This document shows, piece after piece, positions 19,831 through 24,651 of a stretch of 25,969 nt of DNA. How positions within the stretch are numbered: position 1 is the stretch's first letter; each line of letters opens with the position of its first letter. The notes beneath the pieces were generated by a model. The model worked only from the letters and a program-made list of their open reading frames with translations. It was not told where the DNA came from and did not search any database. The position numbers and the translations under genes were made by a program. Source of the DNA: a virus; IMG/VR virus record IMGVR_UViG_3300031975_000077, positions 1 through 25,969 of that record. One strand, given 5' to 3'.

Positions 19831-20154
19831 TTATCTGCTCATCAACGATCTCTTTGTTGCACCGCCTTTGCTGCTTCTATCCTTGGCAAACCCTGTTGCT
19901 TCTGGCTCTCCTTTGAACCGTGGAAACCTTTTGCCTGTGTCCTCTTCGTAACGCCTAGCTATTCCTGCTGCTGTCTCTTCATCAAGCACCATGTGTTCAC
20001 CGTCTTGGTTGAACCACACTGACGGTACTGCCCACCATTGATTGTCTGGTGATGGCGTTGTGACTAGCCGCTCTGTCATTTGCCTTCCGTCTTCTAGCTG
20101 CACTGGCTTGTGCTTAGCTGGATCAAACGGTATTGGGCCATTCCAATCTGGCAT
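19831..20154 (-). CDS. Conserved-type phage protein between terS and terL (107 aa)
   Basis: Trp-rich N-terminal half with WNGPIPFDPAKHKPVQLEDG and NQWWAVPSVWFN, then a helix LDEETAAGIARRYEEDTGKR with FPRF, and a basic C-terminal tail (KGGATKRSLMSR). I recall similar small proteins near terminase genes in podoviruses, but I cannot name a function. ATG 20154 overlaps the terS stop (TAATG). It precedes the 255-bp gap. The helix and basic tail could bind DNA or protein; that is speculation. Confidence 0.75.
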   Translation of the reverse strand: MPDWNGPIPFDPAKHKPVQLEDGRQMTERLVTTPSPDNQWWAVPSVWFNQDGEHMVLDEETAAGIARRYEEDTGKRFPRFKGEPEATGFAKDRSSKGGATKRSLMSR

Positions 20155-20630
20155 TAGTGCTTCACCACCTGCTGCACTGCTTGTGCCTCAACAACCACGC
20201 TGTCCTCGTCGTGAGCGTTCACCGCTATGTCACCACCTGCCCAAGAGATTGTGATGGCCTGCTGCTGCGGCGCCTCTTCTTTTTTGTCACGTACACCCCA
20301 GGGCTGGTTCCTACCTAGCGTCCACTTAAGCGTGTCTATCTCTAGCCTACGTCTCTGAACTTCTGCATTCGCTAACCTGTTGTCCTCAAATTGTGGCAAC
20401 GGCGACAATGCTAGCTGGTTAATATGATCTGTGTAGTACTCGGCCTGCATTACTCTGCCCTGCCTGTACATCTCCCACATGTCATCATCACGCACGGCAG
20501 CCCGTGTGATAGTCCGATAGCTTGGCATGTCCTTGTCCCTCACGATCTGCACCAGCGTTTCACCCTGGGCTAACCTGTCCACGACCTTTTGCATCACAGC
20601 CTTGCTGACCTTGCTTTTATCTTTACTCAT
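20154..20630 (-). CDS. terS: Terminase small subunit
   Basis: 158-aa protein (from ATG 20630) with the layout of Sf6/Bam-type small terminases. A basic start and a helix-turn-helix lie in VSKAVMQKVVDRLAQGETLV QIVRD with MPSYRTITRA. Then comes an oligomerisation region with MYRQGRVMQAEYYTDHINQL and VQRRRLEIDTLKWTLGRNQP. It would recognise phage DNA and feed it to TerL. A TTG at 20642 would add four residues, but ATG 20630 has GGAAAG just before it. The gene is first in the late block and lies 11 nt after the hairpin and T-run at 20641-20662. Confidence 0.9.
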   Translation of the reverse strand: MSKDKSKVSKAVMQKVVDRLAQGETLVQIVRDKDMPSYRTITRAAVRDDDMWEMYRQGRVMQAEYYTDHINQLALSPLPQFEDNRLANAEVQRRRLEIDTLKWTLGRNQPWGVRDKKEEAPQQQAITISWAGGDIAVNAHDEDSVVVEAQAVQQVVKH

Positions 20631-20640
20631 AGCTCTTTCC

Positions 20641-20662
20641 AAAAAAAGCCCCTGCCCGGGCT
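20641..20662 (-). terminator. Intrinsic terminator/attenuator in the late leader, just before terS
   Basis: On the minus strand AGCCC (20662-20658), loop GGGCAG, GGGCT (20651-20647) is followed by a run of seven T (the last stem T plus TTTTTT, 20647-20641). The stem is 5 bp, so moderate. It ends 11 nt before the terS ATG and downstream of the TATAAT box at 20750-20755, so full termination here would silence the late genes. Confidence 0.65.
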
Positions 20663-20749
20663 CAGACCCAAGACAGAGGCAGTTACCTACATTACAGGAG
20701 GATCAAGTAGGTTAAGGAGTACAACGTACAATCGGGCGAAAGGCTGCCG

Positions 20750-20755
20750 ATTATA
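20750..20755 (-). promoter_or_regulatory. Candidate late promoter (-10 box)
   Basis: Read leftward this is a perfect TATAAT, in the only large gap upstream of terS. The hexamer 17 bp before it is ACTGAA, a poor -35, so an activator or phage factor may be needed. Transcripts would start near 20743, giving a leader of about 110 nt with an inverted repeat (ATCGG...CCGAT, 20731-20751) and the terminator at 20641-20662. Confidence 0.5.
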
Positions 20756-20814
20756 CCTAAAGGTTACTACTTTTCAGTACACTGGGCAAGAACAATTTGT
20801 TTTTACTTGCTTTG

Positions 20815-20829
20815 TGACAGCAGCTGTCA
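20815..20829. promoter_or_regulatory. 15-bp palindromic operator candidate
   Basis: TGACAGC-A-GCTGTCA is a perfect palindrome around one central base. It fills the 17-bp spacer between a weak TTGCTT (20807-20812) and TACCTA (20830-20835) on the plus strand, upstream of the 41-aa gene. It matches 12 of 15 positions of TGACAGTATCAGTCA at 23643-23657, in the other divergent control region. Confidence 0.6.
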
Positions 20830-20862
20830 TACCTATGCTTTAGCTATTGAGGAGATAAAGCT

Positions 20863-20988
20863 ATGAACAAACTACACAAACTGCGTGCGATCGTGCGTGA
20901 TATGGAAAACGACTTAGGAATATGGGCAGACATCATCGGCTGTGTTTGCCTGTTTGGACTGATCTTTGGTTTACTGGTGCTGGTGTAA
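20863..20988 (+). CDS. 41-aa single-span membrane protein
   Basis: Very short gene not long enough for usual ORF cut-offs, but well supported. GAGGAG lies 8 nt before ATG 20863, and the product has a charged start (MNKLHKLRAIVRDMENDLGI) then a clean hydrophobic span WADIIGCVCLFGLIFGLLVL ending in V and TAA. An N-in topology with a basic N-terminus is likely. It is the first gene of a two-gene rightward unit with its own operator-like palindrome upstream and a terminator downstream. Small one-span proteins in phages include holins, spanin parts and superinfection-exclusion proteins; none of these can be chosen from sequence alone. Confidence 0.7.
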   Translation: MNKLHKLRAIVRDMENDLGIWADIIGCVCLFGLIFGLLVLV

Positions 20989-20990
20989 CA

Positions 20991-21206
20991 ATGCTATTCA
21001 AACGCGAACCCGCCCAGAAACCGCAAAGAATAAATCCACACATAGTGCCTGCAGTTATGATCCAGGATGCAGCGGCAGTGTTGCCATCGCAAAAGCTTTG
21101 TAACACAGTGCTCGTAGCTATTGCAGACAACCCCAGCGTGAAGCCAGAGCACATAGAAGCGTTGTCCAATTCGCTTGGTAGACTAGCACACGACCGCAGC
21201 AGATAA
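20991..21206 (+). CDS. Small protein of unknown function, second gene of the rightward unit (71 aa)
   Basis: ATG 20991 lies 2 nt after the stop of the 41-aa membrane gene, so coupled translation is likely; the longer frame from 20922 would overlap that gene heavily and reads as non-protein-like sequence. The product has a basic Pro-rich start (MLFKREPAQKPQRINPHIVP) followed by a helical part (QDAAAVLPSQKLCNTVLVAI, then SVKPEHIEALSNSLGRLAHD). There is no signal peptide or membrane span. It is followed after 27 nt by a strong rightward terminator. Function unknown. Confidence 0.65.
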   Translation: MLFKREPAQKPQRINPHIVPAVMIQDAAAVLPSQKLCNTVLVAIADNPSVKPEHIEALSNSLGRLAHDRSR

Positions 21207-21233
21207 CCGTAAATACACCTGACACTTCCTGAG

Positions 21234-21265
21234 AGGCTCCATACGCGGAGCCTTTCGCTTTTTAT
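21234..21265 (+). terminator. Strong intrinsic terminator of the rightward two-gene unit
   Basis: AGGCTCC (21234-21240), loop ATACGC, AGCCT-closing arm GGAGCCT (21247-21253), then TTCGCTTTTTAT. The 7-bp stem and T-run give a good rightward terminator. The leftward genes end at 21278, so transcripts converge here, but the minus strand has no T-run. The stem plus one base on each side (21233-21254) is repeated exactly, inverted, at 3021-3042. Confidence 0.88.
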
Positions 21266-21277
21266 AGCCCAACATAC

Positions 21278-21742
21278 CTAAGAATACTTACGCACGTTTA
21301 GATGCTCCCTGCGAGCCTCTGCGCGCATCGGGTCTATAATCCAAGTCAGCCTGACCAGTGCTGCATTGTAATCTGCTTTCGCAGAATGCCGAGATATACT
21401 CAGCATCTTGCCAATCTTTGTCCACTTTGGCCCTCGCGCTGCATTCACCGCGCTGTGTGCCGCAGCCCAAACAATGCGCCTGTCGTACTCTGGCATCTTC
21501 AAGCCTAGATCAATTGCTAAATCTAGCCTATCAATCTCAGCGGCTGTTGGCGGTATCCGAATAGGCCCAGCGCTTTCCCAGCCATAGGCCTGCCAAGACT
21601 GCGCATAATCAGGCCAGCTAGCCATCTTCTGCTTGCGAATAGGACGTGGCAATTTACGCTCAGTGCCTGCCGCCTCCATAAACAATTCGTCAAAATCTAA
21701 CACAGTCCACTTCGCGAGCTCTTCAATATTCCTTATCTGCAT
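21278..21742 (-). CDS. DUF6362-like helix-turn-helix protein (154 aa)
   Basis: The pattern KLPRPIRKQKMASWPDYAQS, then AYGWESAGPIRIPPTAAEID and RLDLAIDLGLKMPEYDRRIV, ending in a helix-turn-helix GPKWTKIGKMLSISRHSAKA, matches my memory of the DUF6362 family of phage and alphaproteobacterial proteins. In these a conserved WP...YGY region precedes a C-terminal HTH. The function of the family is not established; DNA binding, perhaps as a late regulator or packaging-related factor, is inferred from the HTH. ATG 21742 has GAGGAG at 7 nt and overlaps the upstream gene by 20 nt. It is the last gene of the leftward early cluster. Confidence 0.8.
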   Translation of the reverse strand: MQIRNIEELAKWTVLDFDELFMEAAGTERKLPRPIRKQKMASWPDYAQSWQAYGWESAGPIRIPPTAAEIDRLDLAIDLGLKMPEYDRRIVWAAAHSAVNAARGPKWTKIGKMLSISRHSAKADYNAALVRLTWIIDPMRAEARREHLNVRKYS

Positions 21743-22121
21743 TTATACGCTCCTCAACGATATGACAAAACTGCGCCTGATCCATTGGCTCCATCGAATA
21801 CACAGAAGTTACTATCGATATGTATCTGTCAGCGCTCATAGTTGGCTTGATCTTACGCAGCACTTTGCTCAGACGATGACCAAGCGGATCTGAGATGCTC
21901 GCCGCCTTACCTGCCTTGTATGCCGGTGACATTTTAGTAAGCGCCGACAGTACTACACTGCCTGCGCTTACACTGTAATCACTTACACTGTTATTTATAG
22001 TTAAGTAATCTTCAGTGTATACACTGTTATTAGCACTGTATGTACTAGCACTGTAATCACTTACAGTGTAATTACTATCTCGGTCTGACGACCTCGCGTT
22101 AGCGTACTTTCTTATTGGCAT
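21723..22121 (-). CDS. Repeat-rich protein with Ser/Tyr/Asn pentapeptide-like N-terminus (132 aa)
   Basis: Residues about 17-55 are low-complexity and built of Y-S-V/A-S-x units (YTVSD, YSAST, YSANN, then SVSD, YSVSA, GSVV), encoded by a 15-bp degenerate tandem repeat at 21956-22068. The rest is basic and then ordinary: SPAYKAGKAASISDPLGHRL, SKVLRKIKPTMSADRYISIV, ending in FCHIVEERINADKEY. ATG 22121 has only a weak GGGGG upstream. Another in-frame ATG at 21932 would start after the repeat, but it has no ribosome binding site. The C-terminal part resembles phage regulators of replication only loosely, so I assign no function. It overlaps the DUF6362-like gene by 20 nt. Confidence 0.65.
   Translation of the reverse strand: MPIRKYANARSSDRDSNYTVSDYSASTYSANNSVYTEDYLTINNSVSDYSVSAGSVVLSALTKMSPAYKAGKAASISDPLGHRLSKVLRKIKPTMSADRYISIVTSVYSMEPMDQAQFCHIVEERINADKEY
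21956..22068. repeat. 15-bp degenerate tandem repeat with CACTG half-sites
   Basis: Eight copies of CACTG or its inverse in 113 bp: CACTG starts at 21956, 21971, 21986, 22022, 22034, 22049, and CAGTG at 22013 and 22064. Most steps are 15 bp. Two form symmetric sites: the perfect palindrome CAGTGTATACACTG (22013-22026) and CACTGTAA-TCAC-TTACAGTG (22049-22068). The array may be a protein-binding region or an iteron-like origin, or it may only be a coding minisatellite. Confidence 0.75.
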
Positions 22122-22143
22122 TTGTAAACCCCCATATTAAGCA

Positions 22144-22410
22144 TTATTTTCTGCCCGCTAAATCTGCATAAAGATAGGCGTAATTTACTAAGTCAACCAC
22201 GTTATCTTCATCAGGTCTCCCGTAAATCTCTCTGCAGATCTTCATGTCTGCCAGCATCAGGCACGTCTGCTCGGCTGTTAACTTTACTCCAACTATCTGG
22301 CTCCAGCGCTCGGCCAGCCCATCATAAAGCTTCTCTGCGGGCCCGCGCGACTGCGCCCTGCCCTTCAAAACTGCTGCGCTCTTTTGCTGCAAGCTTTCTA
22401 TAGTGTTCAT
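22144..22410 (-). CDS. DUF6378-like phage protein (88 aa)
   Basis: Sequence features AERWSQIVGVKLTAEQTCLM, LADMKICREIYGRPDEDNVV and DLVNYAYLYADLAG. These match the DUF6378 pattern: a Trp-Ser after an early helix, a catalytic-free LADMK helix and a final Asp-x-x-x-Tyr-Ala stretch. I know the family from phages, with unclear function. ATG 22410 has AGGGA 8-9 nt upstream; the TTG at 22413 directly before it is an alternative. It overlaps the upstream Cys-rich gene by 89 nt in another frame. It ends 22 nt before the repeat-rich gene. Confidence 0.75.
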   Translation of the reverse strand: MNTIESLQQKSAAVLKGRAQSRGPAEKLYDGLAERWSQIVGVKLTAEQTCLMLADMKICREIYGRPDEDNVVDLVNYAYLYADLAGRK

Positions 22411-22546
22411 CAATAAAATCCCTACATTCTTGTTTACTTGAACAGATCAACTCACCACTGAGCAAAATGATCCAACCCCCCAGATTAAGGTCATGCAAGA
22501 ACCCGCAGGCCTTGCATGCCACTGGCCTACTCTTCTTCTTCGCCAT
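22322..22546 (-). CDS. Small Cys-rich, zinc-ribbon-like protein (74 aa)
   Basis: ATG 22546 begins MAKKKSRPVACKACGFLHDL, with LGGWIILLSGELICSSKQEC following: a CxxC pair, a hydrophobic strand and a later C-x5-C pair, which could bind one zinc. The C-terminus is basic and helical (RDFIDEHYRKLAAKERSSFE). It overlaps the preceding gene by 20 nt and the following DUF6378-like gene by 89 nt in a different frame, an unusually long overlap. I see no good ribosome binding site, so it probably depends on upstream translation. Function unknown; nucleic-acid or protein binding is inferred from the Cys pattern. Confidence 0.65.
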   Translation of the reverse strand: MAKKKSRPVACKACGFLHDLNLGGWIILLSGELICSSKQECRDFIDEHYRKLAAKERSSFEGQGAVARARREAL

Positions 22547-22760
22547 CGTCAGGAATATACCCGTAACCGCCGCAATCTTCGCAGGTAATAATGATCTCTT
22601 CGATGTAACCACCGTTCACATAGTCAACCACTGGCTTGTCTGCAGGGTGCTCGCCCTGCCCCATGCAGATGGTGCATTCGATTGCAGGCTCCTCCCACTT
22701 GCGCCCGTCAGTTGCAGTGAAAACAAAAACACGTCGGCCTCCAACATTCTCAAGCCGCAT
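22527..22760 (-). CDS. Small zinc-finger protein with two CxxCxGxG-type motifs (77 aa)
   Basis: Start ATG 22760 has GGAGG at 9 nt and gives MRLENVGGRRVFVFTATDGR. Two DnaJ-like knuckles follow: ECTICMGQGE and TCEDCGGYGY, separated by a beta-like VVDYVNGGYIEEIIIT. The end is strongly acidic (PDDGEEEE). A longer frame to 22877 would overlap the winged-helix gene by more than 100 nt and adds Ala/Arg-rich non-conserved-looking sequence, so I reject it. A single zinc held by the two CxxC pairs is expected. Small proteins of this kind are frequent in phage early regions; role unknown. It overlaps its neighbours by 11 and 20 nt. Confidence 0.75.
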   Translation of the reverse strand: MRLENVGGRRVFVFTATDGRKWEEPAIECTICMGQGEHPADKPVVDYVNGGYIEEIIITCEDCGGYGYIPDDGEEEE

Positions 22761-23049
22761 GCGAACAGACCTCCCAAAGAATGCAGGCCTTACCCCACTC
22801 GCTCTTTCCGCGACGGCCGCTGTCATCAATCTTGCCGGCCTTGCGGAGCTCGGAGATGCGGGGCTGTATGCTGCCATATGGACGCTTCAGTGTGGACGCT
22901 ATTTGCTCACTGCTCAGTGGCAATGAAGATGATTGCAGCAAGTTGTATACTTGATCGCGCAGCGTTAACTTTTGTGCTGCGCCAGACATTGCAGCAGCCT
23001 TGCTGGTGTCTGTCTTTTGATAACCAATCCCCTGGTCAGTATATCCCAT
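22750..23049 (-). CDS. Winged-helix DNA-binding protein (99 aa)
   Basis: ATG 23049 has AAGGAG at 7 nt. The core is a winged helix: LTLRDQVYNLLQSSSLPLSS, EQIASTLKRPYGSIQPRISE, LRKAGKIDDSGRRG. In this fold EQIASTLKRPYGSIQPRISE supplies the turn and recognition helix and KIDDSGRR the wing. It ends with a Trp-containing strand (ACILWEVCSHAA). Such proteins resemble phage regulators that read a DNA end or operator in MarR/DprA-like style. It overlaps the zinc-finger gene by 11 nt and comes 1 nt after the resolvase-like gene. It is likely an early-region regulator; target not known. Confidence 0.8.
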   Translation of the reverse strand: MGYTDQGIGYQKTDTSKAAAMSGAAQKLTLRDQVYNLLQSSSLPLSSEQIASTLKRPYGSIQPRISELRKAGKIDDSGRRGKSEWGKACILWEVCSHAA

Positions 23050-23050
23050 T

Positions 23051-23416
23051 TTACTTCTCCTTTTTTGTTTTTATCCATCCGAGCCAATCCAAGAATGCCT
23101 CATAGGTTTCTAACGGCAGCACAACCAACGTGCGCTCCCGATCCCTTCGAACAAACAGCATGTCGCTGTCGTCCTGATCAAGCGCATCATATAAATCTTT
23201 ATACGCTCTAGCTCTGCGTTTGCATTCAGCAGTCAGCCCAAGTGATGGGCCAAGCTTTATGTCGCTCGCATAGTTTCCCTTCATTGCACCTGACAACGGG
23301 ACACGCTCGGCATCAACGCCGCGCTCCCTGTGCCAGTTTACAATCTCGCGCTCATAAGCAGCGCCTTTATCTCTGCTAGCCTTACCGCCCATGTGCCTAG
23401 TCCCTGTAAAAATCAT
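23051..23416 (-). CDS. Holliday-junction-resolvase-like PD-(D/E)XK endonuclease (121 aa)
   Basis: Core motifs fit Hjc-type or related phage endonucleases: RDKGAAYEREIVNWHRERGV (E22/E24), RVPLSGAMKGNYASDIKLG (S42-G43, D52), then ECKRRA (E64-x-K66). It could cut recombination or replication intermediates and so serve the recombination genes divergently encoded at 23674. Two starts are possible: ATG 23416 (GAGGT upstream, 20-nt overlap with the HTH gene) and ATG 23392 (AGGGA at 8 nt), which gives a start closer to family members, 113 aa. The nuclease motifs are unaffected. Read-out substrate specificity is inference. Confidence 0.82.
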   Translation of the reverse strand: MIFTGTRHMGGKASRDKGAAYEREIVNWHRERGVDAERVPLSGAMKGNYASDIKLGPSLGLTAECKRRARAYKDLYDALDQDDSDMLFVRRDRERTLVVLPLETYEAFLDWLGWIKTKKEK

Positions 23417-23603
23417 TAGGTTTTACCTCGCCCAAACTAGCGAGCTCTATCAGCCGCATAAACTTCGGCGCCGGGATCATACGATCCTTGTGACTGGATG
23501 GTAGGCACCAACGTCTCGCAACAGTAGCATGTGACGCGCCGACCTTCTTTGCGAGCTTGGCATATGAATAGCCTTGCTTTAGTCTCCACTGCTCAATCGT
23601 CAT
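23397..23603 (-). CDS. Cro-like / XRE-type helix-turn-helix repressor candidate (68 aa)
   Basis: MTIEQWRLKQGYSYAKLAKK then VGASHATVARRW is a compact HTH: helix 2 is YAKLAKKVG and the recognition helix is ASHATVARRW. The length and the position as first gene next to divergent promoters resemble phage Cro/cI-type regulators. ATG 23603 has AAGGA 6 nt upstream. The C-terminus (PAPKFMRLIELASLGEVKPN) lacks a peptidase domain, so it is not a classic LexA-like repressor. It probably binds the operator at 23643-23657, and perhaps the similar site at 20815-20829; that is inference. Confidence 0.8.
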   Translation of the reverse strand: MTIEQWRLKQGYSYAKLAKKVGASHATVARRWCLPSSHKDRMIPAPKFMRLIELASLGEVKPNDFYRD

Positions 23604-23612
23604 ATTATGTCC

Positions 23613-23663
23613 TTGAATAATTTGTTCTCAGGTTATACGCTGTGACAGTATCAGTCAACACAG
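23613..23663. promoter_or_regulatory. Divergent early promoters with operator
   Basis: The 70-bp gap between the Cro-like gene and the exonuclease gene. Leftward: TTGACT (23658-23653), 15-bp spacer, TATAAC (23637-23632). Rightward: TTGAAT (23613-23618), 15-bp spacer, TATACG (23634-23639). The -10 boxes overlap, so the two polymerases would exclude each other. TGACAGTATCAGTCA (23643-23657) is a quasi-palindrome across the leftward -35, matching 12 of 15 positions of 20815-20829. Confidence 0.6.
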
Positions 23664-23673
23664 GGAGATTTAA

Positions 23674-24651
23674 GTGGGACTAAAAGTATCTACAGAATTT
23701 GCAGATCGATTTAATTATCGCTGGCATTCCAACCCAAGTACCCCAGATGCTTGGACTTTTTTTGACAAGGGCGTGCAGCGAGTGCAGAGAGACAAAGCCT
23801 TCAAGATCCTGCGAGGCGAGACAGAAGGTGACAAATCATGGGCTGAAGGCATCTTAGAACAAGGCGCGCACTACAAAGACGTAACAGGATCGACGCAGTT
23901 TACCGATAACCCAAACATGGTTAGCGGACGTGCGGTGCAGCAGTATGCCGACCGCCTGCTTGTTGATGAAGTGACACCCTCGGACGCTTATGCAGATGCA
24001 GTCAATATGCTGCACGGCTTTCAGGGTGGGCAGTGGAGAGACACAGAAAAAGACGCTCGGATCATAGAGAACAGAGAGCGCATCTACTATACTGATGAAG
24101 GCAAGCGCAGCAAGGAGCCTACGCACAATGAGTTTGGCTTGGTCTGTGAGAATGCTGCGGCTGGTGTACGCGAGGCGCTTCAAGGCGCCAATAGAATTAC
24201 AGGTGAAATAGAATTGTTTGGCCCTCTGCCGGGTTGTGATCTGCCGTACTTTGGCAAGCCTGACTATGGTGATGGACGTTGTGAATTGAAAACACAGTGG
24301 GATCAGGCGGCTGATACAGACAGCCCTCGCGCAAACTCTTTGCCAAAGAAGATCAAAGCCCCGCACATGATGCAAATTGCCGGCTATTGGTATCTGTCAG
24401 GCATCGTGCCTCGAATAGTTTACGCAAACAGGCTGGGCTACATCGTGCATGAGCCCACAGAGGAAGAGCTAGACCGCGCGCTGGGCGACATAGCCTCTGC
24501 CTGCCGGCGACGTGAAAAGCTTATGAAGGTTGCGGATGACATACAGGATCTGCTGCGCCTGACCGATCCGCATTTCGCTGACAGCTTTGTGTGGCGTGAT
24601 GTACACCCGCAAGTATTAATTGAAGCTAAAAAAATGTTTGGAGTATTGTAA
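23674..24651 (+). CDS. PD-(D/E)XK exonuclease (recombination)
   Basis: 325-aa protein with the catalytic set of a RecB/Cas4/lambda-exo-like nuclease. E159 lies in a helix (FGLVCENAAAGV), then PD197 in FGKPDYGDG, E204-L-K206 in RCELKTQWD, and the Q-x-x-x-Y motif QIAGYWYLSG near 234-238. The N-terminal region is helical and may bind DNA. It would resect dsDNA ends for the annealing protein encoded next, a common phage exo-SSAP pair. The start is GTG 23674 with GGGAG 7 nt upstream, and its TAA overlaps the next ATG (TAATG). First gene of the rightward early unit, next to overlapping divergent promoters. Confidence 0.85.
   Translation: MGLKVSTEFADRFNYRWHSNPSTPDAWTFFDKGVQRVQRDKAFKILRGETEGDKSWAEGILEQGAHYKDVTGSTQFTDNPNMVSGRAVQQYADRLLVDEVTPSDAYADAVNMLHGFQGGQWRDTEKDARIIENRERIYYTDEGKRSKEPTHNEFGLVCENAAAGVREALQGANRITGEIELFGPLPGCDLPYFGKPDYGDGRCELKTQWDQAADTDSPRANSLPKKIKAPHMMQIAGYWYLSGIVPRIVYANRLGYIVHEPTEEELDRALGDIASACRRREKLMKVADDIQDLLRLTDPHFADSFVWRDVHPQVLIEAKKMFGVL

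Follow-up and report, generated by a model that had tools for sequence, protein, structure and literature searches.

The window, by which we mean the whole stretch of DNA that was analysed, is a linear viral record of 25,969 bases with a G+C content of 48.6%. Two of its control regions hold a similar 15-bp sequence, and these two copies (site 1 and site 2) are 2.8 kb apart (Table 1). Site 1 lies between a terS-like gene and a small divergent unit, termed here the accessory unit, that begins with the gene for a single-helix membrane protein of 41 residues, whose start codon at 20863 is 33 nt past the site. Near relatives repeatedly encode homologues of this protein, for which neither Pfam nor PHROGs gave a match, in their own accessory units, and relatives of the 71-residue protein encoded behind it were found in two other contigs only. 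Site 2 is contained in the 70-bp gap between the gene for a 68-residue Cro-like protein (cro) and the rightward early operon, the first protein of which (325 residues) also had no match in Pfam or PHROGs. Dense CACTGTAAT/ACAGTG-like repeats were observed at 21970-22060 within a leftward open reading frame (21723-22121), where they encode a low-complexity N-terminus (SVSDYSAS...). An Rfam scan of the window gave no matches.

Table 1. Features at and around the two candidate operators in the window.
Feature	Position	Strand	Remarks
TerS-like protein, divergent neighbour of site 1	20154..20642	-	adjoins terminase large subunit
Inferred accessory promoter	20807..20835	+	TTGCTT (20807-20812), 17 nt, TACCTA (20830-20835); read by eye
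Site 1, predicted operator	20815..20829	.	TGACAGCAGCTGTCA; perfect palindrome within accessory promoter spacer
41-aa single-helix membrane protein, first gene behind site 1	20863..20988	+	
71-aa protein, second gene of accessory unit	20991..21206	+	
Terminator-like hairpin with T run, end of accessory unit	21230..21257	+	
Holliday-junction-resolvase-like nuclease, second gene of cro operon	23051..23416	-	PF24608, E 6e-7; phrog_244, E 1.4e-16
68-aa Cro-like helix-turn-helix repressor (predicted)	23397..23603	-	
Inferred cro promoter	23630..23658	-	TTGACT (23658-23653), 17 nt, TAACCT (23635-23630); read by eye
Site 2, predicted operator	23643..23657	.	TGACAGTATCAGTCA (other strand TTGACTGATACTGTCA); cro/early-gene gap
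325-aa conserved protein, first gene of rightward early operon	23674..24651	+	

The 68-aa protein matched the Pfam families HTH_38 and HTH_3 slightly under the cut-off, and its predicted structure is a five-helix helix-turn-helix (HTH) fold (pLDDT 94.5). The P22 c2 repressor-DNA structure was among the best solved-structure matches to this model (Z 8.3), with SinR and P22 Cro ranked lower; Foldseek E-values were weak, as is usual with so short a fold. At 68 residues the protein falls within the range of a Cro-type repressor (an XRE/Cro-like HTH of 60-70 residues), and its gene adjoins a divergent early promoter region with a candidate operator of its own, site 2, as in a Cro-type circuit. The turn and recognition helix, (S)HATVARRW, hardly vary among relatives, even at 49% identity, which fits the invariant half-site of the operator described below. 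No close homologue of the protein was found among the named phages searched.

An earlier note, made from the window alone, had reported the same 15-mer at both control regions, and sites 1 and 2 do have the same base at 12 of the 15 positions. The palindrome of site 1 is perfect and odd-centred (TGACAGC-A-GCTGTCA), and 5 of the 7 positions pair in the arms of site 2. The note had also seen no further copy in the gaps, which held true: TGACAGNNNCNGTCA is absent elsewhere in the record, and TGAC-N7-GTCA occurs only twice in the window (0.33 expected). As two or more such sites were reached by 6 of 100 shuffles, this excess is only suggestive on the window data alone. The likeness of the two sites thus stood, but the pattern proposed for them, TGACAG-N3-C-N-GTCA, did not, because the core that is kept in relatives is TTGAC-N7-GTCAA.

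The placement of the sites was as described, with site 1 filling a promoter spacer and site 2 lying over a -35 box, on hexamers read by eye. A strict sigma-70 consensus scan of the window listed neither the accessory nor the cro promoter hexamers. Both boxes of the accessory promoter are kept around the operator in near relatives, and in most relatives the first half of the cro-side operator doubles as the -35 (TTGAC) box of the cro promoter. On the minus strand upstream of terS (20742-20781), an element consisting of TGTAC(T/C)GAAA and then TATAATCG is kept in the near relatives and in loci L146, L151, L161 and L162; it may serve as a late or middle promoter whose -35 is unusual.

A scan of viral contigs identified 80 loci with Cro-like proteins 49-100% identical to that of the window, from which a non-redundant set of 35 upstream regions (100 nt before cro, mutual identity under 70%) was drawn. 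GAC-N7-GTC was present in 28 of these 35 regions compared with 1.0 expected from the same loci, and spacings of 3 to 12 other than 7 had 0 to 3 occurrences each. The consensus of the operator is the palindrome TTGAC-N7-GTCAA. With terS used as the anchor for locating equivalents of site 1, the same palindrome was found at a fixed place: in the window's clade, and in several divergent lineages whose TerS proteins are 59-66% identical, it lies 139-197 nt from terS. There the sites usually scored 19-23 bits. Between the terS-side site and the start codon of the accessory unit there are 19-67 nt across many lineages. The earlier note had named poor conservation of the two sites as a finding that would count against it; this was clearly not what we observed, as both are kept in relatives.

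A matrix trained on the cro-side sites of relatives, with the window's clade left out, ranked site 2 first in the window (15.8 bits) and site 1 third (9.6 bits). A score of 9.6 bits is reached about once per window in random sequence, and the case for site 1 therefore rests on its position. Most near relatives have TAAC replacing TGAC in one half of the terS-side site, so that binding to this operator may be weaker there, and the terS-side site is absent in one near-complete Cro-bearing lineage (L129, L139 and kin). It is the relatives, not the window alone, that make the case for a shared operator convincing.

When strong sites were defined as those of 16 bits or more, the Cro-bearing loci had 136, compared with 1.3 expected from shuffles; 69 were within 130 nt before cro and 67 were elsewhere. 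Pairs of half-sites numbered 171 at a spacer of 7 versus 1-23 at other spacers. The sites elsewhere recurred in front of the early operon (about -800 relative to cro), a tyrosine integrase gene (-4,100 to -5,200) and the terS-side accessory genes (+2,700 to +4,700). Nearly all the non-cro-side sites inspected were intergenic. No strong site was identified in a related Cro-less group (33 loci, 262 kb). The operators are conserved, occupy fixed places and are tied to the Cro gene. The presence of strong sites only where there is a Cro-like gene supported the central proposal of the earlier note, that one repressor controls the early genes and the small membrane-protein unit together.

In the arrangement with a site at -800, a CI-type repressor gene (HTH_26/HTH_3; phrog_3, phrog_1373), divergent from cro, lies between the early gene and cro. 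These temperate relatives have operators at four promoters (the cro/early gap, the terS side, the integrase and the early operon). The recognition helix of the CI-type proteins, usually (T/A)PET(L/V)SRH, is nearly invariant and has the pattern T-V/L-A/S-R in common with that of Cro. Their integrases were at most about 26% identical to integrases of named phages among the matches listed, and the Cro protein of one temperate relative, L043, had no match among named phages. A search for the host via prophages produced one weak 15-residue match in a gammaproteobacterial bin, which was discarded.

Among loci whose upstream sequence extends for 5 kb or more, an integrase, as identified by a PF00589 search, was present in 30 of the 30 that have CI and in none of the nine without it. 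Loci without CI include those of the window's clade, L014, L151 and kin, L029 and L047. No CI gene was found in the window or its near relatives, in which cro and the early gene are immediate neighbours, and no PF00589 match was found in the window (a fragment), G003, G004 or G005, or in loci of the window's clade with 5-8 kb beyond cro. In a tree built on the first early gene, L029 and L047 lie nested within the CI-bearing relatives. The tree has four changes of CI state, three of them forced by well-supported branches; as this is a quick single-gene tree with long branches, the number of CI losses is approximate. Together, these comparisons point to CI and integrase having been lost repeatedly, with Cro and the operators retained. 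L029, L030 and L032, all without CI and integrase, still have a strong operator 2.9-3.0 kb from cro (-2,927 in L029), before a small gene. The circuit proposed in the earlier note was thus supported, with two amendments: the circuit of the temperate relatives also includes an integrase and a CI-type repressor, and the membrane-protein unit is an accessory slot.

This slot is variable, and its genes are swapped between relatives: across phages the promoter, operator and ribosome site are constant and the genes behind them vary. The terS-side accessory units of 37 loci plus L072 and L074 encode 96 distinct proteins in 59 families. ArdA antirestriction proteins are encoded behind the terS-side operator in L127 and L072 (Pfam E 2e-30 and 1e-8, respectively), and L163 has a DNA methyltransferase (phrog_757) at this position. 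The presence of antirestriction genes behind the terS-side promoter of relatives fits an early, transient role. Membrane proteins of 29-44 residues that carry an IIG-like motif are found repeatedly, often toward the distal end of the unit; such tiny membrane proteins are encoded at 20863-20988 in the window and by distal accessory genes of L127, L134, L146, L151, L161, L162 and L163. The first accessory proteins of L127 (166 residues) and L162 (170 residues) are of a common family with a GHCGV/PHCGI motif that had no Pfam match and, from its sequence, looks like a papain- or C39-type cysteine peptidase.

We consider it probable, at about 0.83, that sites 1 and 2 are TTGAC-N7-GTCAA operators of the 68-aa Cro-like protein, which would repress cro, the early unit and the accessory unit. 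One Cro-like protein probably switches both units off, since dozens of relatives keep the arrangement. We infer that Cro is the binder, that it represses by binding and that it acts early. All three transcripts would be on just after injection, and early transcription would make Cro, giving negative feedback. A Cro dimer at site 2 would cover the -35 box of its own leftward promoter and lie over or beside the point where the rightward transcript begins; with no more than about 20 nt between the site and the start codon of the rightward early gene, it would damp both the cro operon and the rightward early operon. Cro at site 1, between the -35 and -10 boxes, would repress the accessory promoter and with it the genes for the 41-aa and 71-aa proteins. 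Accumulating Cro would then shut all three transcripts off together, once replication is under way.

The sites could instead be real and have their main reader elsewhere, either the CI-type repressor of a related resident prophage or a host regulator, the window phage keeping them as an ancestral temperate footprint or as lysogen sensors. The temperate relatives do have a CI-type HTH repressor adjoining cro, with operators at four promoters and a recognition helix that resembles that of Cro. However, the CI-less branch keeps cro, an unchanged recognition helix and the sites over a long divergence, an argument for continued use of the sites by the branch's own protein, and the Cro-less group is without sites. 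We regard a main reader elsewhere as unlikely. The FNR/FixK pattern is TTGAT-N4-ATCAA, and a host site of the FNR/CRP type was rejected on its half-site spacing, as the gap in TTGAC-N7-GTCAA is 7 nt rather than 4.

It is very unlikely that site 1 is mainly an upstream element of a late terS promoter rather than an accessory operator. Although a promoter-like TGTACTGAAA...TATAATCG is kept in several relatives, 34 bp or more from the site, the site-to-terS distance varies over 139-197 nt, and of the distant lineages in which the site is kept, about half have no TGTAC element. In every readable case the site overlaps or adjoins the accessory -35 or spacer, and L014, L151 and L162 have a further site inside the accessory region, away from terS. 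Two other readings, that the palindromes are alike by chance in a record of 26 kb and that site 1 forms an RNA hairpin or a terminator, would agree with the 6% of shuffles that reach two TGAC-N7-GTCA sites and with the listing of site 1 as terminator-like. Neither agrees with the relatives, which are enriched at one spacing only, before one gene and at fixed further places; moreover, the palindrome of site 2 is imperfect, and no hairpin is preserved as the centre of the operator varies. We give these two readings a negligible probability and consider them ruled out by the enrichment in relatives.

The preferred reading, Cro acting at both sites, has parallels in lambda and P22, where a small HTH repressor is likewise encoded at the head of one of a pair of divergent early transcripts, with palindromic operators covering the repressor's own promoter and another early promoter farther away. 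The P22 c2 repressor has an HTH fold that matches the 68-aa model, and the CI partner and integrase of lambda and P22 have counterparts in the temperate relatives. By analogy, the proposed circuit of the window is one that would work like that of lambda or P22 Cro. In contrast to those phages, the window's branch is without CI and integrase, each control region of the window has one operator rather than three, the operator sequence is TTGAC-N7-GTCAA, and the remote operator would control an exchangeable slot beside terS. Because CI and integrase are both absent from the window's clade, this is not a full lambda-type switch, and the best reading of the window's branch is that it has a Cro-only remnant of one.

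A comparable situation is that of mycobacteriophage D29 and cluster A, where the repressor was lost in a virulent relative and its sites remain (PMC6550527). In both cases the sites are spread over the genome. However, the repressor is the only known regulator there, whereas Cro is kept here, and the sites there are mostly stoperators outside promoters, whereas here they are nearly all intergenic before genes. By terminase, the nearest named phages are those represented by Pelagibacter phage HTVC010P, whose TerL is about 57% identical to that of the window. HTVC010P encodes a homologue 33% identical to the 68-aa protein, but the recognition helix of this homologue differs and there is no TTGAC-N7-GTCAA upstream; HTVC010P was thus rejected as a second case of the circuit, the homologue being present and the operator absent. 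Integrase-bearing marine phages distantly related to those of the HTVC010P type are known, such as those of the CRP-810 type (PMC11288001) and further ones in the groups of Mizuno 2013 (PMC3861242). No description of the operator was found in the literature searched, a set that left out the main paper on the life strategy of HTVC010P (Du 2021).

More tentatively, and with somewhat less than even odds, we speculate that in these abundant uncultured marine phages a lambda-type switch lost CI and integrase on at least two to three separate occasions, and that Cro and the dispersed operators were kept to time an exchangeable early anti-defence slot by the terminase genes. If so, CI from temperate cousins in the same hosts would still shut the Cro-only lineages down. 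For uncultured marine podovirus-like phages, a large group, the analysis provides a defined operator sequence and a candidate regulon. The presence of CI and integrase and the number of operators are simple markers that distinguish temperate from probably non-lysogenic branches, and the genes behind the terS-side operator offer a route to finding accessory anti-restriction genes.
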